From Amphiura filiformis (taxonomy: Eukaryota; Echinodermata; Ophiuroidea; Amphilepidida; Amphiuridae), in NCBI RefSeq assembly GCF_039555335.1, contig NC_092641.1, positions 37,596,548 to 37,660,547 on the forward strand: 64,000 nt of DNA. The letters are read 5' to 3'. The notes under the pieces are model-generated. The model did not search any database. It had not been told where the DNA came from and saw nothing but the letters and a program-made list of their open reading frames with translations. Position numbers and translations under genes: made by a program. How positions within the stretch are numbered: the stretch's first letter is position 1; every line of letters begins with the position of its first letter. Positions 21,367 through 64,000 of the stretch are shown here, piece after piece.

Positions 21367-21376
21367 AGAATAAACG

Positions 21377-22162: not shown

Positions 22163-22394
22163 CACTTCATCAGCAGTATATATAGCTTGAGCAGTAGACC
22201 TATAGATAGCCAAGGCGCTACTTCATCAATACCAATATCAGCAGTAGATATAGCTACACTACTTTCATCAATACCAATATCAGCAGTAGATAGCTAGAGC
22301 ACAACTTCATCAATATACCAATATCAGCAGTAGGTAGCTAAGGCAATACTTTGTTTGGCTATGAAAAAGGCCTATGGCCGAAAGCTCGCCCAAT

Positions 22395-31700: not shown

Positions 31701-32085
31701 TGAACATTCATACCAATGCACTTTGCGTGAAACCACAGATTGCACATGTCGCACAGTATGCCACATTGGTTGGACCAAACACACTTTGAACAGCTTCCAC
31801 ATGGATCTTTTGTGGGACCTGGATTGCTAGCAACGTCTCCACTAAGTACTAGAATCAGTGTCACTAGATGGGGCTTCAGTTTAACAGAAATCTTAGATGT
31901 TTTGGGGGCAGCTTAGCAGCTGAGGGCGGAGCTGTAGCTCTCATGTGATCAAAGTATATCATGCAGGTATTAATAGTCTTTGTTGGGGGAGGTATTGTAA
32001 CTAAGTTTACATCAAATGGATGTGCGGAAGAAATTCTATGAGGCAAGATTACAGACGGGTCAAGTTTTTGGTACATCTTTTAATC
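28785..32085 (-). mobile_element. Decayed CR1-like LINE with PHD finger, AP endonuclease and reverse transcriptase
   Basis: Parts in order on the minus strand: an N-terminal piece (31876-32076, MYQKLDPSVILPHRISS); a 2A-like LSGDVASNPGP (about 31800-31850) followed by a PHD-type C4HC3 finger (CDMCNLWFHAKC, WHCSSC); AP endonuclease pieces (GGGLLFAVKSS, IHVIGDFNLPD, about 31377-30933); reverse transcriptase pieces (IYLDFCKAFD, then SGVPQGSILGP and VADDSKCY, 30170-29541); and a C-terminal piece (29251-29018). The frame shifts between most pieces, so it is dead. The 3' end is a (TAAA)n tail near 28785. Clade assignment is by domain order. Confidence 0.85.
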
Positions 32086-35452: not shown

Positions 35453-38400
35453 CTGTAATACAAATAAAGTGTACATATCAGATTGGATAGTTCTTAATCA
35501 AGTGATATCCTGAAGGGAGTTTTATCAAGTTTAAACAATTGTATTTATTGTGTATAAATACTTTCCTGACCAATTATACAAAGCTTAGGAATAACAATTC
35601 AGGAAAAGAGAAAATCATAATGAAAAAACAAAAACAAATCTCTGTGAATCTTTCAAATAAAGAACCTTTAAAGTCATAATGTATGGTCTTATAATATGAA
35701 ATTGGTTAATTTTTTTTCAAACCTGAGTTTTTGGCATATTTGTAATGTTTACCTATGTCCCAACTTGCACATAAATGGAATCAGCCAAATTTGTTGTGTT
35801 TGTAGGTCAACAGAGCAAAGTTTGACATAATGTCATAATCAAAGAATCATGACATTCATGTCCTCCTATAGAACTGTGTGTTAAACGGCCAAAATAACCA
35901 GCAGGGTTTCTTTCACTTTACCTTGTTATTTCAGCTGAAAATGGACAGAAACCATTTCGGATAATAATAACTAGCATTATTTCAACATTTTGAGTATATA
36001 ATAACAAATTAAAAATTTGAAGGAAATCGTCATTAGGCTTTAATAATTGTGAATTTTCAGAACAATGAAGTGGAAATGACTCTCAATATATTGCAAAAGA
36101 CTTGTCCAGAATTGGTGGTGTAGTTTTAAAATCAGCTTATTCTTTTATACAATATTATATTTTCAAATTGACCTACTAGTAAAAATATTGTATGTCTGAA
36201 TATGTTTTATACTTTGAAGATTAGCTTACTAGTTTGGACTGTAATAGTCATAGTATGACTAGTTTGGACTGTAATAGTCATAGTATGACTAGCTATGTTC
36301 CCAGATGGATGATCAACTTACTAGTTTGTACTGTAATGGTCATAGTATGACTAGCTGTATTCCCATTAACTTACTAGTTTGTATTGTAATAGTCATAGTA
36401 TGACTAGCTATGTTCCCATTAACTTACAAGTTTGGACTGTAATAGTCATAGTATGACTAGCTATGTTCCCAGATGGATGATTAACTTACTAGTTTGTACT
36501 GTAATGGTCATAGTATGACTAGCTGTGTTCCTGTTAACTTACTAGTTTGTATTGTAATAGTCATAGTATGACTAGCTATGTTCCCAGATGGATGATTAAC
36601 TTACTAGTTTGTACTGTAATGGTCATAGTATGACTAGCTGTATTCCCATTAACTTACTAGTTTGTATTGTAATAGTCATAGTATGACTAGCTGTGTGCCC
36701 GTTAACTTACTAGTTTGTATTGTAATAGTCATAGTATGACTAGCTATGTTCCCAGATGGATGATTAACTTACTAGTTTGTACTGTAATGGTCATAGTATG
36801 ACTAGCTGTATTCCCATTAACTTACTAGTTTGTATTGTAATAGTCATAGTATGACTAGCTGTGTTCCCGTTAACTTACTAGTTTGTATTGTAATAGTCAT
36901 AGTATGACTAGCTATGTTCCCAGATGGATGATTAACTTACTAGTTTGTACTGTAATGGTCATAGTATGACTACCGTATTTTGTCGAATAAACGCCCCCGG
37001 GGGCGTTACATTTTCCCAAGGGGGGGCGTTTATTAGAGGTCATTTTTAGCACGAAAATTCCCGTTAAAATCATTAGGTAAGCTTAAAAGTCACGCTAAAA
37101 TGACGAACTATGACCTTTTGACACTGACTTTTGGTTCACTTCCGGGTTCGGATCGCCATTTATTGCTGATACTCGCGACCATGTGAGCAACTTGGTAAGC
37201 TTACTACACAAGATAGCATGGAAATATCGGAATTTTTTAAACATCTTGGTTGAAAAAAGTGGTGGGGGCGTTTATTTGAGGGGGCGACTATTCGATTTAA
37301 ATACGGTAGCTGTATTCCCATTAACTTACTAGTTTGTATTGTAATAGTCATAGTATGACTAGCTGTGTTCCGTTAACTTACTAGTTTGTATTGTAATAGT
37401 CATAGTATGACTAGCTATGTTCCCAGATGGATGATTAACTTACTAGTTTGTACTGAAATAGTCATAGTATGACTAGCTGTGTTCCCGTTAACTTACTAGT
37501 TTGTATTGTAATAGTCATAGTATGACTAGCTATGTTCCCAGATGGATGATTAACTTACTAGTTTGTACTGTAATGGTCATAGTATGACTAGCTGTATTCC
37601 CATTAACTTACTAGTTTGTATTGTAATAGTCATAGTATGACTAGCTGTGTTCCCGTTAACTTACTAGTTTGTATTGTAATAGTCATAGTATGACTAGCTA
37701 TGTTCCCAGATGGATGATTAACTTACTAGTTTGTACTGAAATAGTCATAGTATGACTAGCTGTGTTCCCGTTAACTTACTAGTTTGTATTGTAATAGTCA
37801 TAGTATGACTAGCTATGTTCCCAGATGGATGATTAACTTACTAGTTTGTACTGAAATAGTCATAGTATGACTAGCTGTGTTCCCAGATGGATCTCTTACA
37901 GTATAGACATTACTGTGGATTCCAATACCAAAGCTGGTTCCAGATTGGTATGTAGAGTCAATGGTGTAGAAACCAGAGTTTTCATTAGCAGTGGGGTCCA
38001 CCCAGGTGACTGTAGCTGATTGCGTACCAGGACTGACTTCTTTAATGATATCAGATGGAAGATTGACAAATGTTGGGCTTTCTACATCTGGAAGATTAAC
38101 AACAAAGAATGACACAAGTTAATTTTTCTACTAGATATTGGCAAATGAGATTCAATGTTGCCAAAATGTTCTGTCATGCATATCATACATAAAAAAGAAA
38201 GCATATTCAAAATATCACATTAATGATAATCCTCTTGAGACAGTTAATAGTCACATCTATTGGGATATAATTATATAAACCACAATGTGAACTAGATTGA
38301 TCTTGTAAATACTGGTTAACATTTCTTTACTATTTGATAGTTAGGAAGGGCCTCCTTTGCTTCTTTCAATTTTTCTTCATTTTAATGGTAAAGTGCCAGC

Positions 38401-47400: not shown

Positions 47401-50400
47401 AATAGTTTGATAAACGTGTATCACTTGTTGGGAGTGAAATTGTACAAAATAAAGCATGCGTACTGAGATGTTGATGTGTCTAATACATGAGCCTTGCAGG
47501 GGGAAGTGCATTAGACGCATCAACATTTCAGTACAAGTGCATTATTTTGTACAATTTCTCGATCAACATGTGATACACATTTATTAACTATTTCATACAC
47601 AAGGAAAAAAAACATGATTTTTGCTGTTTTTAAAACAAAATTATCACTTAAAAATTTGGAAAAATCAAACCAAATATAAACATAAACCCACCTGAACAAG
47701 GCGGTTCTCGAACCACGAGTCTCGCCTGCTTTTGCGACCGCCTGCTTTTTCAATTATTTTTGGTAGAGGTAAATGAATTTGGCGGTTATCGGCTGGGCAC
47801 GATTATCTGGCTGATGGTGACTGTACCCACCAAGTGTCATGCCCATGCAACAGTTTTTACTAATTTGACCTCAGATGACCCCTGGTGACCCTGAAATTAC
47901 CTTCCAAAAATTTGGCTTTAAATGTTGACTGTACCCACCAAGTTTTCATGCCCATACGACAGTTTTTACTAATTTGACCTCAGATGACCCCTGGTGACCC
48001 CGAAATGACCTTCCAAAAATTTGGCTTCAAATGTTGACTGCACCCACCAAGTTTCATGCCCATCCGACGGTTGTTACTAATTTGACCTCAGATGGACCCC
48101 TGGTGACCTCGAAATGACCTTCCAAAAATTTGGCTTAAAATGTTGACTGTACCCACCAAGTTTCATGCACATACGACTGTTTTAACAATTTGACCTCAAA
48201 TGACCCCTGGTGACCTCGAAATGACCTTCCAAAAATTTGGCATAAAATGTTGACTGTACCCACCAAGTTTCATGCACATACGACTGTTTTTACTAATTTG
48301 ACCTCAGATGACCCCTGGTGACCTCTAAATGACCTTTCAAAAATTTGGCTCTAAATGTTGACTGTACCCACCAAGTTTCATGCCCATCCGACACTTTTTA
48401 CTAATTTGACCTCAGATGACCCCTGGTGACCTCGAAATGACCTTCCAAAAATTTGGCTTTAAATGTTGACTGTACCCACCAAGTTCATGCCCATACGACA
48501 GTTTTTACTAATTTGACCTCAGATGACCTCTGGTGACCTCGAAATGACCTTCCAAAAATTTGGCTTTAAATGTTGACTGGACCCACCAAGTTTCATGGCC
48601 ATATGACAGTTTTTACTAATTCGACCTCAGATGACCCCTAGATGACCCCAGTGACCTTGACCCACTAACCAATACAAACCGGTTCTGTCTCGGGTCAAGA
48701 TGCACCCACCCACCAAGTTTGAGGAACGTGCGACTCATAGTCTCCGAGAAAATAGGCGGAAAGCAAACTTTAACCAAAACTTTTAACCAAATTTGTCACA
48801 TACACACACACATACACACATACATACGGAAAAGTGATTATATAGTCTCCTGCCTTATCAGGCGAGACAAAAATGAATCAATCCTATGCGATGCGAACAT
48901 GTTCAAAAGCACTGTGCGTATTTCACAGAGTGCACATTTTACACAATCAATGCACTCTGCATACATTTCTAAGCACTTTTCTGATTGGTTGCTTTGATAT
49001 AGGAGTGTATGAAAGATCAACACGTGCCTCAACATCATAGTAACATTCTGTTTCCCACTAGAAGACCTGCACTTACCACTATCCCAATAGACAAGTTTAG
49101 GCACTTCATCTTGCCAGTTATTCCATGCTGAGAATGTCACCTTGATTTGTAAAGCCCCTTGGAGTTCCATTTGACCCAAACTTCCTAAGAAAAATGATGG
49201 CTCATATACTTGTTGAATTCTGTGATAAAATAATAATATTAATAATAATGAAACAAATAATTAATGGGTTGCTACATTATATTATACATCTTCATATTTA
49301 GGTCATTTCATTTTTATTTTGATAAAGGTTAAGGAAAGAAATGCAGCAGGTGCTCTTATTGCAGCAGCTCATATTGTAGGCTGATTTAATTTCACCCTCT
49401 ATTTTGGATCGATATGTGGGATGGTCTTAGAGGCGATGTGTATCTATTCTTCCCAGCCTTTTCACTGGTTTATAACATTGGCTAGGTAGCACAATTATTT
49501 GGGCTATCTTTTATATCAAATTTACACCATTTATGAACATGTCAAAGTTGCAGGTTTACTGATATCAGCGGTTTAGTAATCTTTTGCAAAGTATGTTACT
49601 TGTACTGATTCCAAATATTATAAATACTTGGGGAGCTAGGACCACCTGCTTTGCACCCCCACAGGACTGAACCCAACCAACATTTTTAGGTTCCTGAGAT
49701 TACCCAAAAACATAATCAGGATGTTCCTAAAAATATAAACTGGCCCCAAGGGGGGAAGGTCATCGAACTTTGCACTTATCCTTTCATTCACACAAGTCAA
49801 TGTTATATTATTTGTGATCAGAAATACTAACCTTCCTGCAAGTTCTCTGGATGCATATTCAGCCATTCTTCTATGATCAGTAATATAGGACCTAAAGTTA
49901 ACAGACACATCAGATGTGTAGTCCTGACTAGCTCTGCTATCATCTAGGAAACCAAACACTAGTGATGCACCTGCATGTAAGCCTGCAATAGTAAAGGAAC
50001 AATATATGTATGACAAGTGTATTCATAGATGGACTACCTACCTATTTTCATAAATTACAGCAAAATCCACTGCACATGCATGCCGGTCATGTGATGCAAT
50101 GATACAGTCACCCAAAGTCTTATATATGCAAGGTTTCATTAGCCAGGCTCAGCAAAACATCCATGGCTACCACTTGCAATCAGGTGCTTGGCATGCGAGG
50201 GGTCTCGGGTTTGAATCCAGAGTGTAACAAACAACTTCTTGCTTATCTTCACTTGTTTCTTTCCATCTTCCTTTACTTCTCCAAAAAGCACAATGGGTGA
50301 TTAGGTTCAGAAGGTGAATCATACACAGAATGAAGCACAGCTTGTGGTTTACATCTATGCTGCATCTTTAAGTGGGGGTGTGTTTACGCCAGCGTTTTAA

Positions 50401-53400
50401 GTGAATGCTAGCAATTTATGTATACATAACATACCTCCTGAAGTCTGAATAGTCAACTCAAAATCATCTTGTCCTGCCGCTTGTCTTCTGCGTCGTCTTG
50501 CAACAGATGTGTCAATCTTGAGGTCTTCTCCACCAGATGAGGTCATTAGTTCATCACCATCCTCTGAAATGGATCACAAAATTCTTTTGAATAAATTTAG
50601 ATTTAGGATTGTAGATTGAAAGTTATACTTCTATACAAGAAATATATTTACATGGTTAAGGTGGCACTACATAGTTGAGGAAGGTTTACAGTGACTTCAC
50701 TATGAGTGAGGAATTTAAGAGAATGTCATTAAAATATTACTCTTTTGGCACTTGATGGAAACACTATTTTTGATAGCTTCAAACAAAATCTTCTCTAGAC
50801 CTGTACTTGAGTAACAAAGTATGTGGCACTTCAGAAGTGCCACATACTTTGTTACTGGTGCTGTTGGATATTCACAATCTCAAATGTGATGTCACTTATT
50901 TATTTATTTATTTATTTATTACATTTGGCAAAAAGCACAGGCAATACCCAATAGTGCTCAAAGAGCACTAAATTAAAGGAAGCCCTACATACAAAGCGAA
51001 CAAAAATAAACTGAGAAGCAAAAACAAGATAAAAAAGACAACTATTGGAGGGCTTTAACTTTAATGGCTGCACACATGGATAAGGCAGCACTTTGAGATT
51101 CTCTCGGTCAGACATCCGGGAACATTGTCCCCTTTTCATAAGCGCACACATAGCAACCAGCTTGAGGAAGGGGAACTGCACATGCACACACTGGTCTTTT
51201 TCCATTGTGTGAAATCAGCTTGACCGAAAGAATGTTTACAACAGAAATTATACAGATAGATTCAGGATCCATGAACAAAATATGGGTGCATAGTTCATAC
51301 ACAAAACTTGTACAAGTGTGTTATAGGCAATACATTCAAATGTGCCATATACAAAATGAAGTATAAGTCAATTATCTTGCCACTGTTTGTCCAAGTTACA
51401 AAATAAGCTATCATAATTACCTATGACTGTTATTGTCCCAGCAGTTTTTACTGTACATATATCAGCATCATTGCATACTTTCAATTTGGTGTGTAAACAT
51501 CTACATAGAAGAAACAACAAGGTTATTAACAGGAATTTATTTCAAAATGTATTCTTCTTGTAACATTCAGTAAACTAAAAAGCTGACTTCTTATTAAGTT
51601 TGTCACAGTACACCTTTAATTTCAGTTTCTATTTTTTGAAAATAAAGAATGACAGGTAAAGAAAGAAGTAAAGAAAGACAGGTAAAGAAAGAAGTAAAGA
51701 AAGAAAGGAAGGAAGAAAGAGAAAAAGAAAGAAAGAAAGAGAAAAAGAAAGAAAGAAAGAAAGAAAGAGAAAAGAAAGAAAAAGAAAGAAAGTAAAGAGA
51801 GAAAGAAGTAAAGAAAGAAAGAAAGAAAGAAGAAAGAAAAGAAAGAAAGAAAAGGAAAAAAGAAAAGAAAAGAAGAAAAGAAAAGAAAAGAAAAGAAAAG
51901 AAAAGAAAAGAAAAGAAAAGAAAAGAAAAGAAAAGAAAAGAAAAGAAAAGAAAAGAAAAGAAAAGAAAAGAAGACATAAACATCTTTGTCTTATCTTTCA
52001 AACTTGTAAGTTTATGTTGAACCTACCACTTGAATCAAAGATTGCTCTTTCCTATCATCACACTCATTACTTTTAAATCTTTGCATTTTAACCAGTTTAA
52101 CAAACAAACATATTGACAGACAGACAAACATATCTTACTTTCCAGGCTCCATATTGAATCTACTGCCTGCAATCACTGTACCATTCTCATCAGGTACCAT
52201 GACATCAGAGATGCTCCTCTCTGCCATGTCATTGCCACTTGTGACAATAACTCTGCCATCTTTAATAGCCACTGAGCCTGAAGAATTGACACCCACAGTC
52301 ATACATTGGACTATGTCATCTTCTATATCTTCAGAGCTACCAACACAATAATCTGGAAGAACAAGTATTTTGTGATAATGTCTTACCTGTCAGCATAATC
52401 AAAACTACTGGTGCATTATCATAGAGAGATTCTTGCACTTCATGCTTTCCCAATGAGATTAGTCCCAACTCCAAATAGCACAATGTGTAATACTATGGTA
52501 AATGGGTTACAGGTTGATAGTATTATAAACCCTAATCCTCACCCCAACTCTAAACTCCATCCTAACCCTAACCTATAATTCAATTCCTAGTCATAACCTT
52601 AATCATAACCTAAAATGCCCTAAACCCTAACTTTAACCATTTAAAGACTAATATCATTTCTGACTAATGGACTGTTCCAGGTAAATATGTTATATTGAAT
52701 GGAAACAAAAGCATTTATTGACAATAACACAAAATTGAATGATAGTTTGCATCTTAAAGGTTGAGTGTATGTTATCATCACAACACACACAAGCATGCAC
52801 TTTAAATTCAAGTTTACCAGGCATGTGGCCAAAATAATCTGGAGGAAGTACACTATTTTGCCCATACACTTTTATGTATAATCTCTTTGATATCTTCCCA
52901 AGTATGCATGTTTGACCAAAATAAAACATTTCACAAAACCCCTATTTATGAAATAGAAGACAAGGGGTATATTCTTCCTCTAACAATATTGTGAAATAAT
53001 AAACACAAACACTGCCCTATATTCTATATTGCAATTGAGTGACAAATATTTTCCAAACAAAAATTGCTGGAGGATTTTGCAAAATTAATTCTTATTAAAA
53101 AAAGGTTGTTGTTTCATGAGTGGAACTCAATTTTGGATTGGGTAAGGGTGTGCTTCTGGGAATTAAAGTGAACCCATCCATATACCAATTTTCCAAGAAA
53201 TTTGGACCCAGCACTATACCAAAATATTTGGCCAAATTTAATGAAAATTGCCAACATTTTTTCAACTTTTCCCAAAAATGTTGGCAAATTTTTTTTGTGC
53301 CTACAGTTAGGCGAAATTGGGGTATTTTTCAGAAAAAAGATTGGAAAAGTTTGCAAAATTGACCCATCTATGTACGAAAATTGGCCTAGAAAAAAGGGTC

Positions 53401-56400
53401 ATTTATATGGCAAATGGACAAAAATGATACCCATGCTTGTGGCACGTCCGCATATGATCATTTGTACTGAGTACTCCCCTCCTCAGGTCGCTTCAACTGC
53501 AAACTTCACCAAGCAACATGCAAAAGCACCGGCGTGTCCAGGATCTGCGGGGGCCTCAAAGGGGCTTTCAGAATTATCCAGGGGGCTTAATGGCTAAAAT
53601 CGCCAAAAAAAGCTAATTTTACATGATTTATAACAAAGGGTGGGGACTAAGACCCCCCGGACATGCCACTGAAAAGGGAGGGGTTTCAAAACATAGCCAA
53701 TGAAGACTCACCATATCTGGATACACTGTCATCTTCTGCTTTAGTCCATGATATACCAGCACTATTAGCACTGCTTGTCTTCTTAGCATCAGTAGGATAT
53801 ACATTGTCGGATAATGGTTCACTAAAATTGAAAGCAGTTCCAATATCCTCTACTTTAGGTTGCTTCAAAAGGACAGTCACACCTGTTCAATAAGAGAGTA
53901 TGCTTATGAGTGATTCAAATATTATGCCACATATTTGAGATATCATCAATATGTAGTGCTCCTGGAGCATAGCTTGTTTGCTAACATGGCATTATTTTGA
54001 AAGCTTTTGGACCATAACATGTTGAAGGAATCTAAATTCTGCAATATTTGCCTGCTAAAAAGTCTGAAAATGTTTTTTGTAATTACTACTCAACTTTAAA
54101 ATGTGTAAATTTCTTACTTCAGTGTGGTTAGTGGGGGTGTGCTTGGCTGAAGGTGGTGTATAGGGGTGTGTATAGGGGTGTTTGTCTGGAGGAGTGTGTT
54201 TGTTTTTGTGTGGGGGCGGGTGAGGTGTGTGCATCTACCTCATTTTTAGTAGCTGTAATAATGGCATAAACATGTATTTAATCCCATATATCCATCTGAG
54301 GGTACAAAAAAAAAGAACGCCCACAGTTTATTACACATTGATCAGGTACATCTGGAGTCAGATAATGAAAGTTTATGTCAAGTATGAATAATTAATAGAA
54401 GGAATATGTGGGTGTGTGGGGGAGGGGTGGGGGTGTGTGTGTCACTCTTACCTTCACACTCAGTCACAGTCTCCAGACCAGCTCCATTCACAGCTTTCAC
54501 CATCACATAGTAGGTGTGATTATGAAACAAATGGCCCTCTAAATCAGGGTTTGAGCTAGACTGATTCAAGCCAGCATTGGTTAAACTTTGTAAATCTGTT
54601 GCACCTTTAGATGTGCCAATTGCCCAGTAATAGGCCTGATATATGAGAACAAAAAAATTAAAAGTCTACATGTAACACTTATCGTTTATATCGTTTTGAA
54701 AGTCTTTTGTAAGCTACTATAATTTCTGATATTACATTTAGCTACATTTATGAACTATTATATTATTCGCACCTTGTGCCAAGAAAATAACGAGGCAAGA
54801 AAATAAAGAAACAATAGTATCGTGGCTAGGACATCTCTTAGACTCCCAGAAGACACACCAGCTAGAAACCATGTCAAAATATCTGCACAAAGTAAAAAGC
54901 CTAGAGGAAAGCCAAAAACTACTTGGATGTCTATGATCCAAAAAGAACTAAATGAAACTTTAATGTCAGCTGAAGAAAAGGCTGCAAATTGCACCAGCTG
55001 GAACAAACTGATTGAGGTTACCATGTCAACAGACAAACAGCATATCTGATGATGATGATGTCCCAAAAGTCGAAGTATATTCACAAATTTCCCAATGTAC
55101 ACTGTAATAAATTCCTCCTTCCAATACATGAAAAAGGTTCAAGTAGTGAAGGTTGTTGTTACTTTAGGAACATCCCATACCAACTTATTAGCACCTGCAG
55201 CAGGCGAGTTTGAAATGAGGATACCTACCTTTATTTCACTTTCCTCATCTACGAAATTCCAATAAGCTTTGATTGTAGAATTAGATGCCTGGTGGGTAAC
55301 CGGCTGAAGGTCATTGATATCAGACCTTGTCACATCAAGGTAGAATTGAATGTCAAACTTTGGCGGTGTTATGTCTATGTAGATGCCATTGGATGAAGCA
55401 GAAGTTGTTTTCCCATTGCCAGAGACTGCTTGAACTGAAAGATTCAGAGGTATAATACTCTGTATTAATTGATATCCAATAATTAGTCAATATAATAAAA
55501 TCTAGTCACATAAAGGCATAACTAAGCATCAAACTTGGGAGGTGTAATGTCTATACACTGGGTAGATGCCATTGGATGAAGCATACATTGTTTTCCCATT
55601 GCCTGAGACTGCTTGAACGGAACTATCAATAATTCAACAACTCTTCCTATACCTTTGTACAGGAGCCAACCGTTGTTAAACCGTGATGAACCCACACTTT
55701 TACTGTAGCGTATACGCGAACGCGAACGAGACTACGCGTTACGCGAGAGCGAGTAAAATTTATCATGCCTGGAACCTTTGTGCGTATGCCAGCTTACAAG
55801 TTGAATTCAGTATTTTTCAGGTAGCGGCTAAACATTGCCGTTTTATTCTGTAGTTTTATTGCTGATATCAAAAGAAAATCATCGAAGTTTTGTAAGGCTG
55901 AGTGGCAATGATTAACTGACATTCCTCGTAAAATAATCGTGAATTATACGATATTTAGCTTCTTTTCGTTGTTGAAAGGATTCAATCATGTTTCACCGTT
56001 GTTCATCACCGTTTAACAACTCGCGTCCGGTAGCGTCTGCGTAGTTTACTTAGCTCGGGCAGCTAAAGCTGCCCTCGCGAAGTAAACCACGCAAACGACG
56101 CGGCTGCATCATTGTTAAACGGTGATGAACAACGGTGAAACATGATTGAATCCCTAAATAATACTCAATATTAATTGATATCTAATATTGCCTAATACAA
56201 ATAAATCTGGTGTGGCAAGCGATTTGTTTTGTTGTAGTTGGTTCTTTTTTTTTTTTTGGGGGGTCTCAAACTTTTTTTGGGAGGGGGGCGGATCTCAAAC
56301 TTTGTCTCAAATTTTACAACTTCCATGATTTTTGTTTTGACTGGGGATGCATCACATACCCCTTGTGACACTGTCATAAGGTTTTTCACAATGCCTGATA

Positions 56401-59400
56401 CTGCTTGAACCTTAATTCCAGGTGCGTATAGCCTTCCATGAGCGCACACAAACATGGAAATTCTTCAGACAACACAGATATATCAAATATGATTGGCTCA
56501 CCTGTAATGAAATACAGTGCATTGGCAACAGTGTCACTCGTAGTGTTCTCATATTGTAGTCTGCTTGCAGAGAGAGTCAGGTTTGTAAGAGAGAATGATA
56601 TTGGTGTGACCTGGGTCATGTTACATGAGTTTTCACACTGGAATCTATTGCAGGCTGATGCTGATAAACATGGAATGCAGGGACTTGCAATCTGTAGGGT
56701 AGAAGAGAGAATGATATTGGTGTGACCTGGGTCATGTTACATGAGTCTTCACACTGGAATCTATTGCAGGCTGATGCTGATAAACATGGAATGCAGGGAC
56801 TTGCAATCTGTAGGGTAGAAGAGAGAATGATATTGGTGTGACCTGGGTCATGTTACATGAGTCTTCACACTGGAATCTATTGCAGGCTGATGCTGATAAA
56901 CATGGAATGCAGGGACTTGCAATCTGTAGGGTAGAAGAGAGAATGATATTGGTGTGACCTGGGTTATGTTACATGAGTCTTCACACTGGAATCTATTGCA
57001 GGCTGATGATGATAAACATGGAATGCAGGGACTTGCAATCTGTAGGGTAGAAGAGAGAATGATATTGGTGTGACCTGGGTCATGTTACACGAGTCTTCAC
57101 ACTGGAATCTATTGCAGGCTGATGCTGATAAGCATGGAATGCAGGGACTTGCAATCTGTAGGGTAGAAGAGAGAATGATATTGATGTGACCTGGGTCATG
57201 TTACATGAGTCTTCACATTGGAATCTATTGCAGACTGATGCTGATAAGCATGGAATGCAGGGACTTGCAATCTGTAGGGTAGAAGAGAGAATGATATTGG
57301 TGTGACTTGGGTCATGTTACATGAGTCTTCACACTGGAATATATTGCAGGCTGATGCTGATAAACATGGAATGCAGGGACTTGCAATCTGTAGGGTAGAA
57401 GAGAGAATGATATTGGTGTGACCTGAGTCATGTTACATGAGTCTTCACATTGGAATCTATTGCAGGCTGATGCTGATAAGCATGGAATGCAGGGACTTGC
57501 AATCTGTAGGGTAGAAGAGAGAATGATATTGATGTGACCTGGGTCATGTTACATGAGTCTTCACACTGGAATCTATTGCAGGCTGATGCTGATAAGCATG
57601 GAATGCAGGGACTTGCAATCTGTAGGGTAGAAGAGAGAATGATATTGGTGTGACCTGGGTCATGTTACATGAGTCTTCACATTGGAATCTATTGCAGACT
57701 GATGCTGATAAACATGGAATGCAGGGACTTGCAATCTGTAGGGTAGAAGAGAGAATGATATTGGTGTGACCTGGGTCATGTTACATGAGTCTTCACATTG
57801 GACTCTATTGCAGACTGATGCTGATAAACATGGAATGCAGGGACTTGGCAATCTGTAGGGTAGAAGAGAGAATGATATTGGTGTGACCTGAGTCATGTTA
57901 CATGAGTCTTCACATTGGAACCTATTGCAGGCTGATACTGATAAGCATGGAATGCAGGGACTTGCAATCTGTAGGGTAGAAGAGAGAATGATATTGGTGT
58001 GACCTGGGTTATGTTACATGAGTCTTCACACTGGAATCTATTGCAGGCTGATGCTGATAAACATGGAATGCAGGGACTTGCAATCTGTAGGGTAGAAGAG
58101 AGAATGATATTGGTGTGACCTGGGTCATGTTACATGAGTCTTCACACTGGAATCTATTGCAGGCTGATGCTGATAAGCATGGAATGCAGGGACTTGCAAT
58201 CTGTAGGGTAGAAGAGAGAATGATATTGGTGTGACTTGGGTCATGTTACATGAGTCTTCACACTGGAATCTATTGCAGGCTGATGCTGATAAACATGGAA
58301 TGCAGGGACTTGCAATCTGTAGGGTAGAAGAGAGAATGATATTGGTGTGACTTGGGTCATGTTACATGAGTCTTCACATTGGAATCTATTGCAGGCTGAT
58401 GCTGATAAACATGGAATGCAGGGACTTGCAATCTGTAGGGTAGAAGAGAGAATGATATTGGTGTGACCTGAGTCATGTTACATGAGTCTTCACATTGGAA
58501 CCTATTGCAGGCTGATACTGATAAGCATGGAATGCAGGGACTTGCAATCTGTAGGGTAGAAGAGAGAATGATATTGATGTGACCTGGGTCATGTTACATG
58601 AGTCTTCACATTGGAATCTATTGCAGACTGATGCTGATAAACATGGAATGCAGGGACTTGCAATCTGTAGGGTAGAAGAGAGAATGATATTGGTGTGACC
58701 TGGGTCATGTTACATGAGTCTTCACACTGGAATCTATTGCAGGCTGATACTGATAAGCATGGAATGCAGGGACTTACAATCTGTAGGGTAGAAGAGAGAA
58801 TGATATTGGTGTGACCTGGGTCATGTTACATGAGTCTTCACACTGGAATCTATTGCAGGCTGATGCTGATAAGTATGGAATGCAGGGACTTACAATCTGT
58901 AGGGTAGAAGAGAGAATGATATTGGTGTGACCTGGGTTATGTTACATGAGTCTTCACATTGGAACCTATTGCAGGCTGATGCTGATAAGCATGGAATCCA
59001 GGGACTTGCAATCTGTAGGGTAGAAGAGAGAATGATATTGGTGTGACCTGGGTCATGTTACATGAGTCTTCACACTGGAATCTATTGCAGGCTGATGCTG
59101 ATAAGCATGGAATGCAGGGACTTGCAATCTGTAGGGTTGAAGAGAGAATGATATTGGTGTGACCTGGGTCATGTTACATGAGTCTTCACATTGGAATCTA
59201 TTGCAGGCTGATGCTGATAAGCATGGAATGCAGGGACTTGCAATCTGTAGGGTAGAAGAGAGAATGATATTGATGTGACCTGGGTCATGTTACATGAGTC
59301 TTCACACTGGAATCTATTGCAGGCTGATGCTGATAAGCATGGAATGCAGGGACTTGCAATCTGTAGGGTAGAAGAGAGAATGATATTGGTGTGACCTGGG

Positions 59401-62400
59401 TCATGTTACATGAGTCTTCACATTGGAATCTATTGCAGACTGATGCTGATAAACATGGAATGCAGGGACTTGCAATCTGTAGGGTAGAAGAGAGAATGAT
59501 ATTGGTGTGACCTGGGTCATGTTACATGAGTCTTCACACTGGAATCTATTGCAGGCTGATGCTGATAAGCACGGAATGCAGGGACTTGCAATCTGTAGGG
59601 TAGAAGAGAGAATGATATTGGTGTGACTTGGGTCATGTTACATGAGTCTTCACACTGGAATCTATTGCAGGCTGATGCTGATAAACATGGAATGCAGGGA
59701 CTTGCAATCTGTAGGGTAGAAGAGAGAATGATATTGGTGTGACTTGGGTCATGTTACATGAGTCTTCACATTGGAACCTATTGCAGGCTGATACTGATAA
59801 GCATGGAATGCAGGGACTTGCAATCTGTAGGGTAGAAGAGAGAATGATATTGATGTGACCTGGGTCATGTTACATGAGTCTTCACATTGGAATCTATTGC
59901 AGACTGATGCTGATAAACATGGAATGCAGGGACTTGCAATCTGTAGGGTAGAAGAGAGAATGATATTGGTGTGACCTGGGTCATGTTACATGAGTCTTCA
60001 CACTGGAATCTATTGCAGGCTGATACTGATAAGCATGGAATGCAGGGACTTACAATCTGTAGGGTAGAAGAGAGAATGATATTGGTGTGACCTGGGTCAT
60101 GTTACATGAGTCTTCACACTGGAATCTATTGCAGGCGGATGCTGATAAGCATGGAATCCAGGGACTTGCAATCTGTAGGGTAGAAGAGAGAATGATATTG
60201 GTGTGACCTGGGTCATGTTACATGAGTCTTCACACTGGAATCTATTGCAGGCTGATGCTGATAAGCATGGAATGCAGGGACTTGCAATCTGTAGGGTAGA
60301 AGAGAGAATGATATTGGTGTGACCTGGGTCATGTTACATGAGTCTTCACATTGGAATCTATTGCAGGCTGATGCTGATAAACATGGAATGCAGGGACTTG
60401 CAATCTGTAGGGTAGAAGAGAGAATGATATTGGTGTGACTTGGGTCATGTTATATGAGTCTTCACACTGGAATCTTGCACGCTGATGCTGATAAGTATGG
60501 AATGCAGGGACTTGCAATCTGTAGGGTAGAAGAGAGAATGATATTGGTGTGACCTGGGTCATGTTACATGAGTCTTCACATTGGAATCTATTGCAGGCTG
60601 ATGCTGATAAGCATGGAATGCAGGGACTTGCAATCTGTAGGGTAGAAGAGAGAATGATATTGGTGTGACCTGGGTCATGTTACATGAGTCTTCACATTGG
60701 AATCTATTGCAGACTGATGCTGATAAACATGGAATGCAGGGACTTGCAATCTGTAGGGTAGAAGAGAGAATGATATTGATGTGACCTGGGTCATGTTACA
60801 TGAGTCTTCACATTGGAATCTATTGCAGGCTGATGCTGATAAGCATGGAATGCAGGGACTTGCAATCTGTAGGGTAGAAGAGAGAATGATATTGGTGTGA
60901 CCTGGGGCATGTTACATGAGTCTTCACACTGGAATATATTGCAGGCTGATGCAGATAAACATGGAATGCAGGGACTTGTAAGCTGTAGGGTAGAAATCAA
61001 TTATAGCATTGGTCTATTCCAGTGGAAATCTTTATCCCCTGTGTGGGAGATTAAGGTCATGTTTTCCATAGCAGGTGTATGGATTTCAACTGGAATAGCC
61101 AACTGAATTTTTACACTCTAAAGCCTATTCACTCAACATTGTTTAAAAACTACTCCCCTGCTGCATAAAATTGTACACAAAGCTAACATACCAAATTGTA
61201 GCCAGAGCATTGGGAGTTGGGTACTGGAATTAGTTGTTGACGGTGTGTCCGGCTTGCGTTGCCGACACCATACCATACCCATTTTAAAGGGTAATTTCCC
61301 CCTAAAATGAACCCAGCACATGCAATGTTTCAAATGAGACACATATCTAGGGATTTTACCTGCAAAACATATCTAAGAGTATCATATATTTGAGTACGCC
61401 AGAATCATAACCCCAAAGTAAGAATACAATGATCACTATAAACCATAAATACCATACCTCTTTAAATGGAACCGTGTTTACTTGTCCACGTTCTGTACCA
61501 ATGCCGGCCAAATAGCGCACTATTGGACTGGAGCCTGCACGGAATGGGTTACCATAGCGACATGGATGGGAACTCTCTGGAGGAATTCTAATAATGCAAT
61601 AAAACAAAACATAGTGAGAATTATAACATATATGACCTTCAAAATATTCATCTATTTATTTATATCGTCGGTCGCAACACATAGTGGCATATGTGAAGGA
61701 CAAAATACGTTTCTGATCAAAACGTTTTTGACGGATATGCTACTAGTAAAGGAGTAGATACTCCTCCAATGTTATCTCTCAGTGGCCCGATTCCATTTTG
61801 TAATTGAAGTTTAAGGTTTAAACTATGAAATTGTATCTTTAATGGTTAACAAGGAATAAAAAATTGTAGGATAATAGCTAGCTCTAAGCCTATATGCCAC
61901 TATGTGAAACAGAAAATTTTGAAAATTACTCTACGCCACTATGTGTTAAGACCGACGATATACTTGGTTGGGGATAACAGGGGTAGGGGAGGTTTGTTGC
62001 AGGGCAGACTGCCCATGGAGAATACCATTTTGTGATTTGTGAGTGATTGGTTGAGAGCTGTACTAACAAGGCTATAAACATCCTCGATAATTGTGTACCT
62101 TAGATCACTGAAGTAAGCTGTGGCCTTTGGTGGATTGAATTCATCTTCTATTGATGACACAACATTATCCTTATTCCAAACATGTAATATCAATTGAGTT
62201 GATGTTGAGAGATGTGGTATGCCATCTAGTGCTGTAAGAAGAATCCCATCTATGGTCAAACTCAGCTCCCACTGCTCCTGTAACATTATACATGAAATAC
62301 CGTAAAGATAAGAATATAAGCCACAAGGTTGATTGAAATATGAATCAGACAATAATGTAATAGTACTAAAGTAGCTGTAGGTTACAGTGCTATAAACTTT

Positions 62401-63859
62401 TATCTAGCTTTTGATTTAACTCTTTTTTAAAAATTCCCTGATGATTTCATTCACTATACCTGTTCTGCAACTGTTGGATAGACCTTCACACTGAAGGAAT
62501 AGCTGTGCATCTCTTGTGAGGGATCAAAATTCAACACCACTGTATCATGGATTATAAGGTAGTCATCTCTATGGTAACGGCACCAGAGGGTAGCTTGCCA
62601 CTCTGAATCCCCTACAGGATAAAACAAAAGATCAACACAAAGTTCATTAAGCTTTGTATCACAAAATCCTACATTTCTTTCTTTCATTTGGGCAATTCCA
62701 ATTGAAATCCATACACCCTCTACTCTGTAGAAGGCATGGCCTTAATCTCCCACACAAGGAGTGCAGATTTTAAATGGAGACATCCATTCACTTAATCAGA
62801 TTTTAAAATTTGAAATTCACCCTGTGTGGAAGATTAGGTGCTATTAAGGTCATGCCTACCATAGGAATTTATGGATTTCAACTCGAATAGCATATTTTGA
62901 ACAGGTAAATTTGTACTGATATGCTTGTTTTAAGTGACATATATGAACCTGTACTAACTTTGATATAACTGTAGCCCACAAGCTCTCTGTTCAAGAAATT
63001 CTACATTCACTGGATGGTTGTACTCCTCCTTAGAGCCTTTGCTATCAGTAGAACTTAACACAGGGGGTGGATTGGCTTCATTATAACCTGCTAGGCTTAG
63101 GTATTCAGTGCAGTTACACCAACATGATGACTGGAAAAAAGGAGGATATAATGTTGTGTTACGATAATTATCATTTTTTGAAAAAATAACACATGCTTGA
63201 AAAGGGGTTCTCCATTACATTTTTTGTGGGCCATGCCGGCCATGTAGGCCTTGTAGGGCCAATAATTGATTTGTGTTTGAGGGCCAAGTGCACCTTGGCT
63301 TGCTAGTACTTAGAAGTACAAATCAAATCTGTGGCATCGGGGGTCGATGCTTTGCGTCACATGCGAGCGCGACGCAACGCGTAAAGAGCATGGTGCACAA
63401 ATCGTGCAGCAGTTGGTGCGCCAAAGAAGCATTGCACTGAATTATTCTCATACCTCCAGTTTCCGAGGTCTATTTACTTTGTACTTCTAAGTGGACAGAC
63501 TATATGATTAATGGACATTTCAGAGCTCTCACAGCAGTACCTAACACATTATGGAGAAGGGAACACAAGAAATTCACAGCTATAATAGCAAAAAGAAAAT
63601 TAGTTTCATGTTTGAAAATGAAAGACATGAAAATATAATGAGGATAAAAATATTGTTGTCCAAGTAATTTAGACTGAGATTGTGTTAAATGATGTACACT
63701 TACCTGGTCGAATGGTTGTACAAAGCAGCAAGAGCACAAGTCTTGTTTCCAATCACCTGATGGTTGTATTATGTAATCACCAACCACACCCTCCATGCCA
63801 TCCCAGAATAAAACACTTGTTATGGCATCAACATTGCCAGCAGCAGCTTTCAATTGAAT
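33360..63859 (-). CDS. Large extracellular HYR / cadherin-like / C-type lectin protein (27 exons visible, 5' partial)
   Basis: Exons in gene order: 63704-63859, 62959-63130, 62460-62611, 62099-62277, 61458-61587, 56502-56691, 55229-55434, 54452-54635, 53712-53882, 52139-52352, 51421-51500, 50435-50563, 49832-49982, 49077-49219, 46377-46462, 45663-45828, 44788-44961, 44285-44433, 43151-43405, 42143-42299, 41216-41467, 39595-39834, 39069-39311, 37842-38087, 35300-35452, 34101-34183, 33360-33506. All junctions have GT/AG ends and agree in phase; the sum is 4,608 nt (1,535 codons plus TAG). The N-terminus and signal peptide lie beyond 64000. No membrane segment is visible, so a secreted or matrix/adhesion role is inferred. 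I do not recognise a named orthologue. Introns carry many transposons and two satellites made from the gene's own splice junctions. Confidence 0.85.
33560..33995 (+). mobile_element. LINE 3' end fragment (L1/Tx1-type tail)
   Basis: Plus-strand frame 33567-33803 contains LLNICVILIKKVIYDSRFKN and later KLEKRIAISNNTMHKFIDKW, the pattern seen at the extreme C-terminus of L1/Tx1-type reverse transcriptases (ILxxKxxIYxxR...E..IA..N.....F..KW). The stop is followed by an AT-rich 3' UTR and an A-rich tail (AAAAAAATAAAATAATAA, about 33977). It lies in the last intron of the HYR/lectin gene. Confidence 0.55.
34254..34355. mobile_element. Foldback element, GGGGTTCATTCATA termini
   Basis: GGGGTTCATTCATAAGAT pairs with ATCCTATGAATGAACCCC, and CGCTGTTTATGCCC with GGGCATAAACAGCG, around a GCGGCGTGAGCC loop. 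About 100 bp. Confidence 0.85.
34838..35020. mobile_element. Palindromic MITE, CTATTCCAGTTGAAATCCA family, copy 1
   Basis: About 185 bp, beginning (G)CTATTCCAGTTG and ending with its inverse (CTGGAATAGC). The interior contains TGGAAGAT(A/T)(T/A)GACCTTAATCT and CATTCAGG. Further copies are at 41847-42025, 42896-43075, 46180-46363 and 62690-62892, with a half copy at 61010-61105. Confidence 0.85.
36225..37841 (-). repeat. Splice-donor satellite derived from HYR exon 24
   Basis: About 23 units of 53 or 62 bp in addition to the exon's own copy. In gene sense each reads ...CTAGTCATACTATGACTATT..CA.TACAAACTA then GTAAGTTAA, that is, the last 40-50 bp of HYR exon 24 and its 5' splice site. The 62-bp units also carry ATCATCCATCTGGGAAC, which joins intron to exon at a sequence shared with exonic GATCCATCTGGGAAC. 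Units alternate in blocks (53, 53 and 62 bp), a higher-order repeat of about 168 bp. Interrupted by a MITE at 36973-37306. Confidence 0.93.
36973..37306. mobile_element. TA-flanked MITE inserted in the splice-donor satellite
   Basis: 334 bp with TA on both sides and termini CCGTATTTTGTCGAATA / TATTCGATTTAAATACGG. Inner inverted G/C-rich arms AAACGCCCCCGGGGGCGTT and GGTGGGGGCGTTTATTTG. It clearly post-dates array growth, because the unit sequence resumes exactly on the other side. Confidence 0.85.
37842..41467 (-). CDS. Exons 21-24 of the HYR/lectin gene: four HYR domains
   Basis: Each exon (41216-41467, 39595-39834, 39069-39311, 37842-38087) is a symmetric phase 1-1 module of 240-252 nt encoding one HYR domain. 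The shared pattern is FxxLPSDI, VTWxxPxxxDNSG, a glycine-rich loop, then YTAVDExGN and FTITV; for example VTYTAVDEFGNQAHDSF in exon 23 and VVITAVDEQGNYASFEF in exon 21. HYR domains are immunoglobulin-like adhesion folds first named in hyalin. The exon symmetry is what exon shuffling produces. Exon 24's donor (CTA before GTAAGT at 37841) is the parent of the tandem array immediately downstream. Confidence 0.88.
38410..39015 (-). mobile_element. LINE C-terminal fragment, split by a hAT-type MITE
   Basis: The minus-strand frame near 38570-38712 reads ARLAIAYKKHAWNNLPTTIR then SNTLSGFKKGLKTYLF, the conserved W.NLP..IR...SL..FK..LKTYLF tail of CR1/L2-type LINEs. On the 3' side it ends near a (TACA)n run at 38400. 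The fragment resumes at 39005 after an inserted MITE. Confidence 0.65.
38713..38996. mobile_element. hAT-type MITE inserted in a LINE fragment
   Basis: 284 bp. Termini CATAGGCGTAGTAGA and (inverted) CAGTGGCGTAGTGTA; exact 8-bp target duplication GTCTGGAC (38705-38712 and 38997-39004). The interior is rich in GGGGGGATGGGGG. Related in termini to 46983-47127. Confidence 0.85.
40501..41136. mobile_element. TTAA-flanked near-palindromic MITE, copy 2
   Basis: Same family as 14414-15077 but in the opposite orientation, with TTAA at 40497-40500 and 41137-41140. The arms pair across a centre containing CAATTGAAAAAAATTTTCC. Located in the intron between HYR exons 21 and 22 of the HYR/lectin gene. Confidence 0.87.
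41847..42025. mobile_element. Palindromic MITE, CTATTCCAGTTGAAATCCA family, copy 2
   Basis: Termini GGCTATTCCAGTTGAAATCC and GGATTTCAACTGGAATAGCC are exact inverses. A complete copy of about 180 bp. Confidence 0.9.
42143..44961 (-). CDS. Exons 17-20 of the HYR/lectin gene: cadherin-like tandem repeats
   Basis: Exon 17 (44788-44961) reads AVMKYQLQAQDADNDKLQF and LDGLLTYIPC. Exon 18 (44285-44433) has VKPVNDNPFVF. Exon 19 (43151-43405) has YDIDSGDHVTLSVSQ. Exon 20 (42143-42299) has TITYTPNTGFYGKDSLHILA then HDDD. The alternating D-x-D-x-D, PVNDNP and TYTPNTGFYG motifs are typical of calcium-binding cadherin-like tandem repeats. The exons are phase-compatible and together with the end of exon 16 form about two repeats (visible residues 782-1081). 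Confidence 0.8.
42317..42749. mobile_element. Composite foldback element, copy 1
   Basis: Begins AATTCAACAACTTTTCGTAT, passes a unique middle (AGATAGCGGCTAAATATTACC), and ends in a foldback GGGATTCAATCCTGTTTCAC ... GTGAAACACGATTGAATCCC whose arms are about 75 bp. The copy at 55625-56154 shares all three parts. It lies within 16 bp of the splice acceptor of exon 20 of the HYR/lectin gene. Confidence 0.85.
42896..43075. mobile_element. Palindromic MITE, CTATTCCAGTTGAAATCCA family, copy 3
   Basis: Begins GGATTCCAGTTGAAATCCAT and ends TTTCAACTGGAATAGCC, with the same interior motifs as the other copies. Confidence 0.88.
43610..44062. repeat. Tandem-duplicated CTTCCACAGGGGAGTAT-type palindromic repeat
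   Basis: A segment carrying CCCCTGTGGAAGATTTTG and its inverse CTTCCACAGGGGAGTAT, then CCACCCTCTCTCTTTGGAAG, occurs twice in tandem (about 43640-43795 and 43797-43970). A third related palindrome follows (ATCCATACTCCCTCTGTGGA). A relative of the 180-bp palindromic MITE family. Confidence 0.7.
45448..45612. repeat. Short tandem duplication (about 90 bp x 2)
   Basis: CATGGAATTTTTTGTAAAAG, GAAATTCCTCACAGCTTCAT and TTTACAAAGTGA.AATTT occur twice in a row within an intron of the HYR/lectin gene. Confidence 0.85.
45663..49982 (-). CDS. Exons 13-16 of the HYR/lectin gene: unassigned beta-rich region
   Basis: Exon 13 (49832-49982) reads LHAGASLVFGFLDDSR and ends SRELAGR. Exon 14 (49077-49219) reads IQQVYEPSFFLGSL and KVTFSAWNNWQDEV. 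Exon 15 (46377-46462) reads GHMKWQDAGITCEE. Exon 16 (45663-45828) reads VCVTRKSSANGANT and HETQFAV, then LPTNITLNEDE. The WDSGHMKWQDAGITC...C...TQFAV order loosely recalls autoproteolysis-type folds that end C...L..FAV, but no HL[ST] cleavage triad is visible, so no function is assigned. Confidence 0.75.
46180..46363. mobile_element. Palindromic MITE, CTATTCCAGTTGAAATCCA family, diverged copy
   Basis: More mutated copy (TTAAATCCAAATGCCCCTAT ... GTATTGATTTCAAAGAGAAT). It retains GGGGTAACCTGAATGGGTGA and GGGAGATTAAGGTCATG. It ends next to the splice donor of exon 15. Confidence 0.75.
46885..47190 (+). mobile_element. tRNA-derived SINE, interrupted by a hAT-type MITE
   Basis: The plus strand carries tRNA-like polymerase III boxes (A-like region GTGGCCTACATGTTAGAGC, B box GGGTTCGAACTC), then TTGGGCAAGACAC. 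After the inserted MITE it resumes with TCTATCATGCTTTTCCCACT and GTAAAAGGGGAGCTGT, a body typical of animal tRNA SINEs. Confidence 0.7.
46983..47127. mobile_element. hAT-type MITE inserted in the SINE
   Basis: 145 bp with CAGTGGCGTGCGCAG and inverted AAGTGGTGTGCGTAA termini and a 7-bp duplication AAGACAC (46976-46982 and 47128-47134). No coding capacity. Confidence 0.8.
47401..47592. mobile_element. Foldback element
   Basis: Left arm AATAGTTTGATAAACGTGTA ... TTGTACAAAATAAAGCATG pairs imperfectly with right arm ... GTGCATTATTTTGTACAA ... TACACATTTATTAACTATT. Arms of about 85 bp. Confidence 0.75.
47815..48660. repeat. 108 bp satellite built of TGACCT half-sites (8 units)
   Basis: Eight head-to-tail units of about 108 bp (GACTGTACCCACCAAGTTTC, ATGCCCATACGACAG, TTTTTACTAATTTGACCTCA and so on). 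Each contains TGACCT-n4-TGACCC-n4-TGACCT-n5-TGACCT, direct repeats of the nuclear-receptor half-site (inverse of AGGTCA) spaced as DR4, DR4 and DR5. The array is followed by a segment with GACCTTGACCCACTAACC and an (ACAC)n run (48800-48825) that probably marks the end of the parent repeat. Confidence 0.9.
50435..52352 (-). CDS. Exons 10-12 of the HYR/lectin gene, with polybasic cleavage motif
   Basis: Exon 10 (52139-52352) reads YCVGSSEDIEDDIVQCMTVG and ends EPGK. Exon 11 (51421-51500) is an 80-nt exon, CLHTKLKVCNDADICTVKTA. Exon 12 (50435-50563) contains TSVARRRRRQAAG, a run of five arginines that fits a furin-type proprotein convertase site. Phases run 1-0, 2-1 and 1-1 and all agree. If cut, the protein would be split into an N-terminal FN3-like half and a C-terminal cadherin/HYR/lectin half. 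Confidence 0.75.
50810..50856. other. Perfect 23 bp inverted repeat
   Basis: AGTAACAAAGTATGTGGCAC-TTC, then a single A, then the exact reverse complement. 47 bp with no mismatch, in the intron upstream of exon 12 of the HYR/lectin gene. Probably the core of a small foldback element. It could form a cruciform or a long RNA hairpin. Confidence 0.9.
50893..51060 (-). mobile_element. LINE-like 3' end fragment
   Basis: (TTTA)n run followed by TTACATTTGGCAAAAAGCAC and GTGCTCAAAGAGCACTAAAT. In minus sense it ends in a (TAAA)n tail like the CR1-type 3' ends elsewhere in the window. No protein part is visible. Confidence 0.4.
51640..51975. repeat. Purine microsatellite (GAAA)n / (GAAAA)n
   Basis: About 335 bp of almost pure A/G on the plus strand, with irregular GAAA repeats followed by about 25 perfect AAAAG pentamers. 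It gives an artefactual open frame of Ser/Phe/Leu on the other strand. Located in intron 10 of the HYR/lectin gene, a few hundred bases from exon 11. Confidence 0.97.
52640..53690. other. Intron 9 of the HYR/lectin gene, mostly unrecognised
   Basis: No gene. A repeat-like block at 53120-53420 echoes itself (TTGGACCCAGCAC, GAAAATTGCCAACA, CCATCTATGTACGAAAATTGG). A short MITE-like unit lies at about 53528-53672, between CGGCGTGTCCAG and the inverted CGGACATGCCACTG. Confidence 0.45.
53712..55434 (-). CDS. Exons 7-9 of the HYR/lectin gene: fibronectin III-like region
   Basis: Exon 7 (55229-55434) reads VQAVSGNGKTTSASSNGIYI then DITPPKF and KAYWNFVDEESEIK. Exon 8 (54452-54635) continues AYYWAIGTSKGATDLQ, then HNHTYYVMVKAVNGAGLETV. 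Exon 9 (53712-53882) gives GVTVLLKQPKVEDIG and ISWTKAEDDSVSRY. The repeated WxFxDxESxIxxYxWAIGT...L..N.TYYVxVKAxNxAG pattern is that of FN3-like or related beta-sandwich repeats in deuterostome surface proteins. FN3 is assigned by pattern only. Confidence 0.75.
54770..55060 (+). mobile_element. LINE reverse transcriptase C-terminal fragment
   Basis: The plus-strand frame 54822-55049 reads PRGKPKTTWMSMIQKELNET, then SWNKLIEVTM, preceded in the genome by a WLGHLLRLPEDTPAR-like stretch. This is the common tail of LINE polyproteins (WLGHVLRM...RGRPKKTW...W..L). A 5'-truncated copy in intron 7 of the HYR/lectin gene. Confidence 0.75.
55625..56154. mobile_element. Composite foldback element, copy 2
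   Basis: Shares AATTCAACAACTCTTCCTAT, GGTAGCGGCTAAACATTGCC, TTAACTGACATTCCTCGTAA and the terminal foldback (GATTCAATCATGTTTCACCG ... CGGTGAAACATGATTGAATC) with 42317-42749. It additionally carries an internal CCGTTGTTAAACCGTGATGA piece and a CpG-rich insert (GCGTATACGCGAACGCG). Confidence 0.85.
56502..56691 (-). CDS. Exon 6 of the HYR/lectin gene: cysteine-rich exon, parent of the 116 bp satellite
   Basis: Starts IASPCIPCLSASACNRFQC (five cysteines in the first 23 residues), continues CNMTQVTPISFSLTNLTLSA and ends YFIT at a GTGAGC donor, phase 0 in and phase 1 out. The first 98 bp of this exon and its acceptor are the source of the tandem array that fills the upstream intron. Beyond the shared TTCTCTCTT the exon becomes unique coding sequence. 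Its own acceptor (CTACAG before 56691) is the only one of about 38 copies that continues in frame into that unique part. Confidence 0.82.
56692..61000 (-). repeat. Splice-acceptor satellite, 116 bp unit, about 37 copies
   Basis: In gene sense each unit reads TTCTCTCTTCTACCCTACAG, then ATTGCAAGTCCCTGCATTCC, and so on to GACCCAGGTCACACCAATAT, CATTC. It contains the pyrimidine tract and AG of a strong 3' splice site and about 98 bp of the start of exon 6. The array extends upstream from the true exon (56502-56691) across almost the whole intron to 61000. The most distal unit has the presumably original intron side (TTGATTTCTACCCTACAG). Units differ by a few substitutions only. 116 is not a multiple of 3, and reading through a unit reaches a stop after VKTHVT. 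Confidence 0.96.
61010..61105. mobile_element. Half copy of the palindromic CTATTCCAGTTGAAATCCA MITE
   Basis: GGTCTATTCCAGTGGAAATC at the left, ATGGATTTCAACTGGAATAG at the right, but only about 95 bp. The outer arms remain and the centre is lost. Confidence 0.75.
61458..63859 (-). CDS. Exons 1-5 of the HYR/lectin gene: N-terminal cysteine-rich and beta-rich region
   Basis: Five exons encode visible residues 1-263. The first two carry clustered cysteines (DLCSCCFVQPFDQ joined to SSCWCNCTEYL). Exons 3 and 4 alternate hydrophobic and polar residues as in a beta sandwich (WQATLWCRYHRDDY; EQWELSLTIDGILL). Exon 5 reads IPPESSHPCRYGNPFRAG and ends VPFKE in phase 0. No domain is named with confidence. 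All five junctions agree in phase, and codon content is clearly protein-like compared with the flanking introns. Confidence 0.78.
61661..61962. mobile_element. MITE with TATATCGTCGGTC termini
   Basis: About 300 bp. Left TATATCGTCGGTC then AACACATAGTGGC; right is the exact inverse apart from two bases. An internal TATGCCACTATGTG repeats the subterminal motif. No coding capacity; located in intron 4 of the HYR/lectin gene, 137 bp from exon 4. Confidence 0.88.
62690..62892. mobile_element. Palindromic MITE, CTATTCCAGTTGAAATCCA family, copy near exon 3
   Basis: Begins GGGCAATTCCAATTGAAATC and ends ATGGATTTCAACTCGAATAG, with GGCCTTAATCTCCCACACA inside. A diverged but full-length copy. Confidence 0.8.
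63308..63492. mobile_element. MITE-like unit with ACTTAGAAGTACAAA termini
   Basis: ACTTAGAAGTACAAATCAAA at the left and TTTGTACTTCTAAGT at the right enclose about 150 bp that are CpG-rich (GAGCGCGACGCAACGCG). No coding potential. Confidence 0.65.
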
Positions 63860-64000
63860 CTACAAGTAAGAAATAATATTGCCTTTAATATTTCTACCTT
63901 ATTCCTTTCATTTTACCTGATTGATATTTGTTGAATAAGAGAATATGCTTATGAGTGATTTAAATATATGCTGTTGCTAGTGTAAAATTACATGAAACTG

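Follow-up and report, generated by a model that had tools for sequence, protein, structure and literature searches.

Tandem arrays of a splice acceptor and of a splice donor at exon edges in one gene region of Amphiura filiformis

The window analyzed here, meaning the whole 64,000-nucleotide stretch of Amphiura filiformis DNA (NCBI RefSeq assembly GCF_039555335.1, contig NC_092641.1, forward-strand positions 37,596,548 to 37,660,547), carries a predicted chain of 13 exons on its minus strand (Table 1). The chain was assembled by eye and with splice-site matrices, using GT donors and AG acceptors, and was ended at 49832 after an exon candidate at 49184-49077 was dropped because its phase did not fit. 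Splice-site scores throughout come from human-type matrices; by these scores the acceptor and donor of exon 4 (4.1 and 4.0) and the donor of exon 3 (4.6) are weak. The 704-residue product of the chain has a match to fn3 only, below the Pfam cut-off. HYR exons lie farther down the minus strand (Pfam HYR, E 2.1e-15 and 6.9e-07), and three predicted exons together give a C-type lectin domain (Pfam, E 6.5e-23). Their strand and order suggest that the chain, the HYR exons and the lectin exons belong to one transcript.

Table 1. Positions of the principal features in the window, numbered from its first nucleotide.
Feature	Position	Strand	Description	Basis or remark
Predicted exon chain	49832..63859 (63859-63704 ... 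49982-49832)	-	13 exons, 704 codons, no stop	Coherent phases; outermost ends arbitrary
Predicted exon 5	61458..61587	-	Donor faces the acceptor array	
Predicted exon 6	56502..56691	-	190 nt, entered in phase 0 and left in phase 1	Acceptor 10.9; donor CAG/GTGAGC, 11.2
Acceptor array	56587..60995	-	38 acceptors, 37 full units; last copy forms the exon 6 start	Tandem Repeats Finder and unit listing
Short inverted-repeat element	61014..61098		One end 31 nt before the ancestral acceptor	Ends read by eye
Older partial copy of the exon 7 start, in intron 6	55502..55622	-	80% over 121 bp	Acceptor AG now CG
Predicted HYR exon	37842..38087	-	246 nt; the donor array begins with its own donor	Pfam HYR, E 2.1e-15
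Donor array	36228..37915	-	HYR exon end and donor; 23 donors (22 GTAAGT, 1 GTAAGC)	Tandem Repeats Finder and site listing

A tandem repeat covers the boundary between intron 5 and exon 6. Tandem Repeats Finder reports one array with a period of 116, 38.0 copies and 96% matches, its units lying head to tail on the minus strand. When split at the acceptor, 35 of the 37 full units measure 116 bp, one 114 and one 117, and the exact sequence CTACCCTACAG is present at 37 of the 38 acceptors, the remaining one differing by a single substitution. The limits of the unit follow from a comparison of the intron that precedes the first unit (ATAATTGATTTCTACCCTACAG) with the point where the last copy passes into unique exon (ATTCTCTCTTACAAACC). 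Of the 116 bp in the unit, 11-13 come from intron 5 and 103-105 from exon 6, with TT common to both at the join, and the acceptor with its adjoining 103-105 bp of exon is found in all 38 copies. Only the copy nearest the gene body is still followed by the remainder of exon 6 with its donor. The unit length lies within the range of about 10-120 bp for minisatellites, and identity is high in head-to-tail order (116 bp by 38, 96%); the array is a minisatellite spanning an exon-intron boundary, and a chance match is ruled out for 4.4 kb of such identity. Its GC content (0.41-0.43 in its 2-kb windows) is exon-like, compared with 0.37-0.38 in the surroundings.

The initial annotation had described this stretch as a satellite made of a splice acceptor and exon start, and the satellite is real. 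The 37 copies given there hold for full units and the 38 acceptors were counted correctly, but the array runs past the end assigned to it, into exon 6 as far as 56587. The exonic share of the unit was put too low, at 98 bp, because the exon's own CTCTCTT had been counted as intron. The junction between units supports the proposed origin by a duplication that joined exon to intron, but with TT alone in common at the join it shows microhomology at most.

Twenty-eight of the 38 unit rows are distinct (the last row being partial), with a mean pairwise difference of 3.7; units 36 and 37 are the same, unit 38 is one change off, and unit 1 differs from all others by 5-10. A higher-order repeat was rejected, with no run of at least three unit types recurring and a best lag of 11 (shuffle P 0.05). 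Since 28 of the rows are distinct and no such run recurs, the array is unlike the product of a looped assembly, and it is extremely improbable that the array is an assembly artefact, the true one being far shorter or else collapsed and longer. An exact search with one acceptor-unit pattern gave 0 matches in viral contigs, which is uninformative about animals.

Variation was found at 26 columns of the unit. In the tract and AG (columns 91-116) it affects 1 of 26 columns, compared with 25 of 90 elsewhere (P 0.006, for a window picked after viewing the data), and in a conventional 23-base acceptor window 2 of 23 (P 0.06). Excess conservation of the tract and AG is at most hinted at by these figures. 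Decoy exons are a phenomenon described in the literature, and the array acceptors might likewise have been kept for holding splicing factors unproductively, thereby delaying intron 5 or causing its retention. The near-invariance of the tract and AG would speak for such a role, but the conventional window and the small number of independent events speak against it, and we consider it very unlikely. As for coding selection on the units, the 25 changes comprise 10 synonymous, 15 non-synonymous and no nonsense changes (40% synonymous compared with 22-29% expected); they are too few, and none is claimed.

From the donor of exon 5, the intron would span 475 nt to the first array acceptor and 4766 nt to the last. 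The predicted chain is open with acceptor 38 (exon start 56691) only. Each of the 37 earlier acceptors leads to a stop after 15-102 codons, in 30 cases after 63 codons, which on the predicted chain bears out the original statement that the last acceptor alone continues in frame and earlier ones run into a stop. If exon 6 is skipped, a stop is met 19 codons on; the exon is thus not a cassette that could be lost without breaking the frame.

A second array on the same strand, which went unmentioned when the acceptor array was first noticed, repeats the end of a predicted HYR exon together with its donor. It is the mirror image of the acceptor array, with exon end and donor repeated instead of exon start and acceptor, and in our reading both are exon-edge minisatellites. 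The 22 spacings between its donors are 53 bp (11 times), 62 bp (8 times), and then 52, 92 and 389 bp; a donor-like GTAGGT at 36176 was left out of the count as it lies outside the array. The frame is open with the first donor only, the other 22 leading to an in-frame stop nine codons past the normal exon end. By analogy to the acceptor array, the first donor would be used and the remaining donors would be intronic. The 389-bp spacing, between donors 10 and 11, contains an inserted inverted-repeat element (approximately 36975-37310, with ends CCGTATTT and AAATACGG). One exact donor-unit pattern gave 0 matches in prokaryote genomes and is equally uninformative about animals.

Such a gene might be dying or already dead, the acceptor array having broken exon 6 splicing and the open frame being a relic. 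There are 38 competing acceptors, the frame is broken at every earlier one and on skipping, and a donor array is present too. However, 13 exons with 704 codons and no stop argue against a dead gene, as do the well-preserved HYR and lectin domains, although a recent loss would look alike. We regard this explanation as unlikely.

The acceptors are not all of the same strength. The first, ancestral acceptor scores 6.8, while 36 of the 38 score 10.9 and one scores 8.6; the earlier description of near-identical strong acceptors therefore fits 37 of the 38 but not the ancestral one. Among the 3534 AGs scored on the minus strand, 48 reach at least the array level, and 36 of those 48 are the array itself. 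The rise from 6.8 to 10.9 came about because the duplication placed the exon's CTCTCTT before the intron's CTACCCTACAG. Judging from the computed scores, when there were just two copies the correct acceptor, the downstream one, would therefore have been the better. The weakness of the ancestral acceptor matters for how the first duplication was tolerated. The case also suggests how a mutation expected to wreck a gene can be tolerated, the duplication itself having handed the correct copy a better acceptor.

Several other elements bear on acceptor strength. The short inverted-repeat element upstream of the array has 11 more matching pieces within the 64-kb window; it may have weakened the ancestral acceptor. 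Between -60 and -15, YTNAY occurs only at -51 in the two array copies checked, a point against the strength of the array acceptors, and before the ancestral acceptor the single site in that interval is at -15. A weaker AG, scoring 4.6-5.8, lies inside the exon part of most units. RNA structure as the selector of the acceptor was rejected, as four folded stretches were like shuffles (z 0.62, -0.93, -0.04 and 0.31); when one copy is folded by itself, the best structure leaves its pyrimidine tract unpaired.

We favor as probable an exon-edge minisatellite in which the last acceptor is mostly used, through pairing across the exon, with some leak. The array likely arose by tandem duplication of 11-13 bp from the end of intron 5 together with the adjoining 103-105 bp of exon 6, as its anatomy indicates, and later unequal exchange would have brought it to 38 acceptors. 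The spliceosome would mostly pick the last acceptor because it pairs with a strong donor (11.2) 190 nt away across the exon. By their scores, the donors in the array (3.8 or less, except ATT/GTAAGT with 6.7 in three units) would offer the other acceptors no comparable partner at exon distance, and across-exon pairing would favor acceptor 38, with an exon of 190 nt, over acceptor 37, with one of 306 nt, and over the others. Messages spliced to earlier acceptors would be frameshifted, given the computed stops, and probably decayed.

The switch from across-intron to across-exon pairing has been placed near an intron length of 250 nt (PMC9225289). As 11 of the 12 introns of the predicted chain are longer than 250 nt, this threshold supports across-exon recognition here. 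According to the same paper, exon definition reduces the upstream preference of acceptors and does not reverse it (PMC9225289), so that leak is to be expected and a clean choice of acceptor 38 is not guaranteed. The exon-like GC content of the array blurs the contrast between exon and intron and also counts against a clean choice. Further points against the favored explanation are the three units with a usable-looking donor, some weak sites in the chain and the human-type matrices. In those three units, ATT/GTAAGT makes 119-nt pseudo-exons possible, two of which were independently proposed by an exon scan. How splicing copes with so many acceptors, which had been called a real question, plausibly has an ordinary answer in across-exon pairing, and a documented relative exists in human ABCA7.

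A further route would use the short start of the unit itself. The acceptor is followed by ATT/GCAAGT in 33 of the 38 units and by ATT/GTAAGT in 3 of the 38; these lie 3 bases away from the classical recursive-site form AG/GTAAGT, with T at -1 and -2. Exon 5 could join an early unit and then re-splice from this 3-nt start, through a GC-type donor in the 33 copies or a canonical one in the 3, to a later acceptor. A wrong choice would in this way be repaired, at the cost of no more than one in-frame isoleucine codon per step. Such a stepwise ladder seems to us very improbable; if it were true, the ladder and the donor array, which share a strand, would turn the gene into a natural machine for splice pairing, with an output set by copy number.

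The two arrays can be compared with known repeats at splice sites. The unit of the human ABCA7 intron 18 VNTR contains the exon 18 donor, and the reference has 23.7 units of 25 bp (PMC5954066). With a splice donor within a tandem unit beside an exon, it is a direct parallel to the donor array described here. It differs in that a donor and not an acceptor is repeated, the unit is 25 bp, the repeat is polymorphic and its effects on splicing were measured (PMC5954066), whereas the present arrays come from a single sequence. When splicing in ABCA7 moves to the next donor, the side product keeps one unit and is out of frame, while canonical splicing persists (PMC5954066). Skipping of ABCA7 exon 19 climbs strongly with VNTR length (PMC5954066), which would fit a rheostat in which copy number sets transcript loss through wrong acceptors, skipping and intron retention, varies among individuals and tunes gene dose. 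That 28 of the 38 rows are distinct points the same way, as does the near identity of the units closest to the functional copy, which gives an impression of continuing turnover. However, use of the next donor, with retention of one unit, was constant across VNTR sizes in the ABCA7 study (PMC5954066). Tuning of dose by copy number is possible, if somewhat unlikely.

Minisatellite variation at the exon-intron boundaries of human duplicated genes also alters splicing; those units average 30 bp with 4 copies and can form novel introns (PMC2812944). The position at a boundary is shared, and the difference is that the present array has 116 bp by 38 inside an existing intron. No acceptor-bearing array appears among the literature matches listed; a donor array of this kind is already known from ABCA7. 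Introns have reportedly arisen from tandem duplications or tandem arrays (Zhuo et al. 2007). Such duplication likewise adds splice sites to a gene, but in the present case no new intron is predicted, and it is an existing one that is lengthened by copies of its acceptor side.

In mutually exclusive exon clusters such as that of Dscam, complete coding exons compete for one partner splice site. The acceptor array resembles these in offering many alternatives to one partner site, but its units offer no strong donor, with a moderate one in 3 of 38, and run into stops. With array donors at 3.8 or less except in 3 units, and a stop after all 37 earlier acceptors, a mutually exclusive exon cluster was rejected. 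Work on splice-site choice has mostly relied on minigenes with two competing sites. In this gene region, one donor is preceded by 38 near-identical acceptors and one acceptor is followed by 23 near-identical donors, competing sites that differ in almost nothing but distance. With two arrays of opposite kind on one strand, splice-site pairing would become measurable, and isoform counts in cDNA would show how it declines with distance, over the intron as well as the exon.

The start of exon 7 has also been copied, into intron 6 (Table 1). This older copy has a score of 126 compared with a shuffle maximum of 32, and a second, weaker fragment of the exon 7 start in the same intron scores 37 compared with 26. 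Together with the two arrays, exon-edge duplication is thus seen at three exons; the donor array and this decayed copy count among the points for the favored explanation. Two of the three larger arrays in the gene span straddle an exon edge, in a count that leaves out two-copy and short-unit arrays; the chance of this is about 0.06 under random placement on a list of 25 exons that includes uncertain ones. Given that chance, neither a particular preference of arrays for exon edges nor a special mechanism is claimed.

Several other repeats are present in the window. A 108-bp array of 7.7 copies found by Tandem Repeats Finder (47814-48647) lies between predicted exons and straddles no exon edge as far as identifiable. 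An interrupted array of a 42-bp unit (20458-23311, Tandem Repeats Finder) has no exon edge identified. Another interrupted array, of a 78-bp unit (24226-27444), has a plus-strand frame that reads GYPRTGKTTLLLHFTMHSDVYEFIL and then a stop; we take GYPRTGKTTLLLHFTMHSDVYEFIL to resemble a Walker A (P-loop) motif. No Pfam family matched the 25 residues, and this may perhaps be another array derived from coding sequence. Intron 6 contains a long inverted repeat (55978-56153, 83% over 180 bp) related to 42397-42752 (77%). About 39 bp at 63929-63967 match the intron immediately upstream of predicted exon 9 (92%). Minus-strand pieces of a reverse transcriptase-like reading frame, recognized by eye at 29541-31912, probably belong to a LINE-type element.
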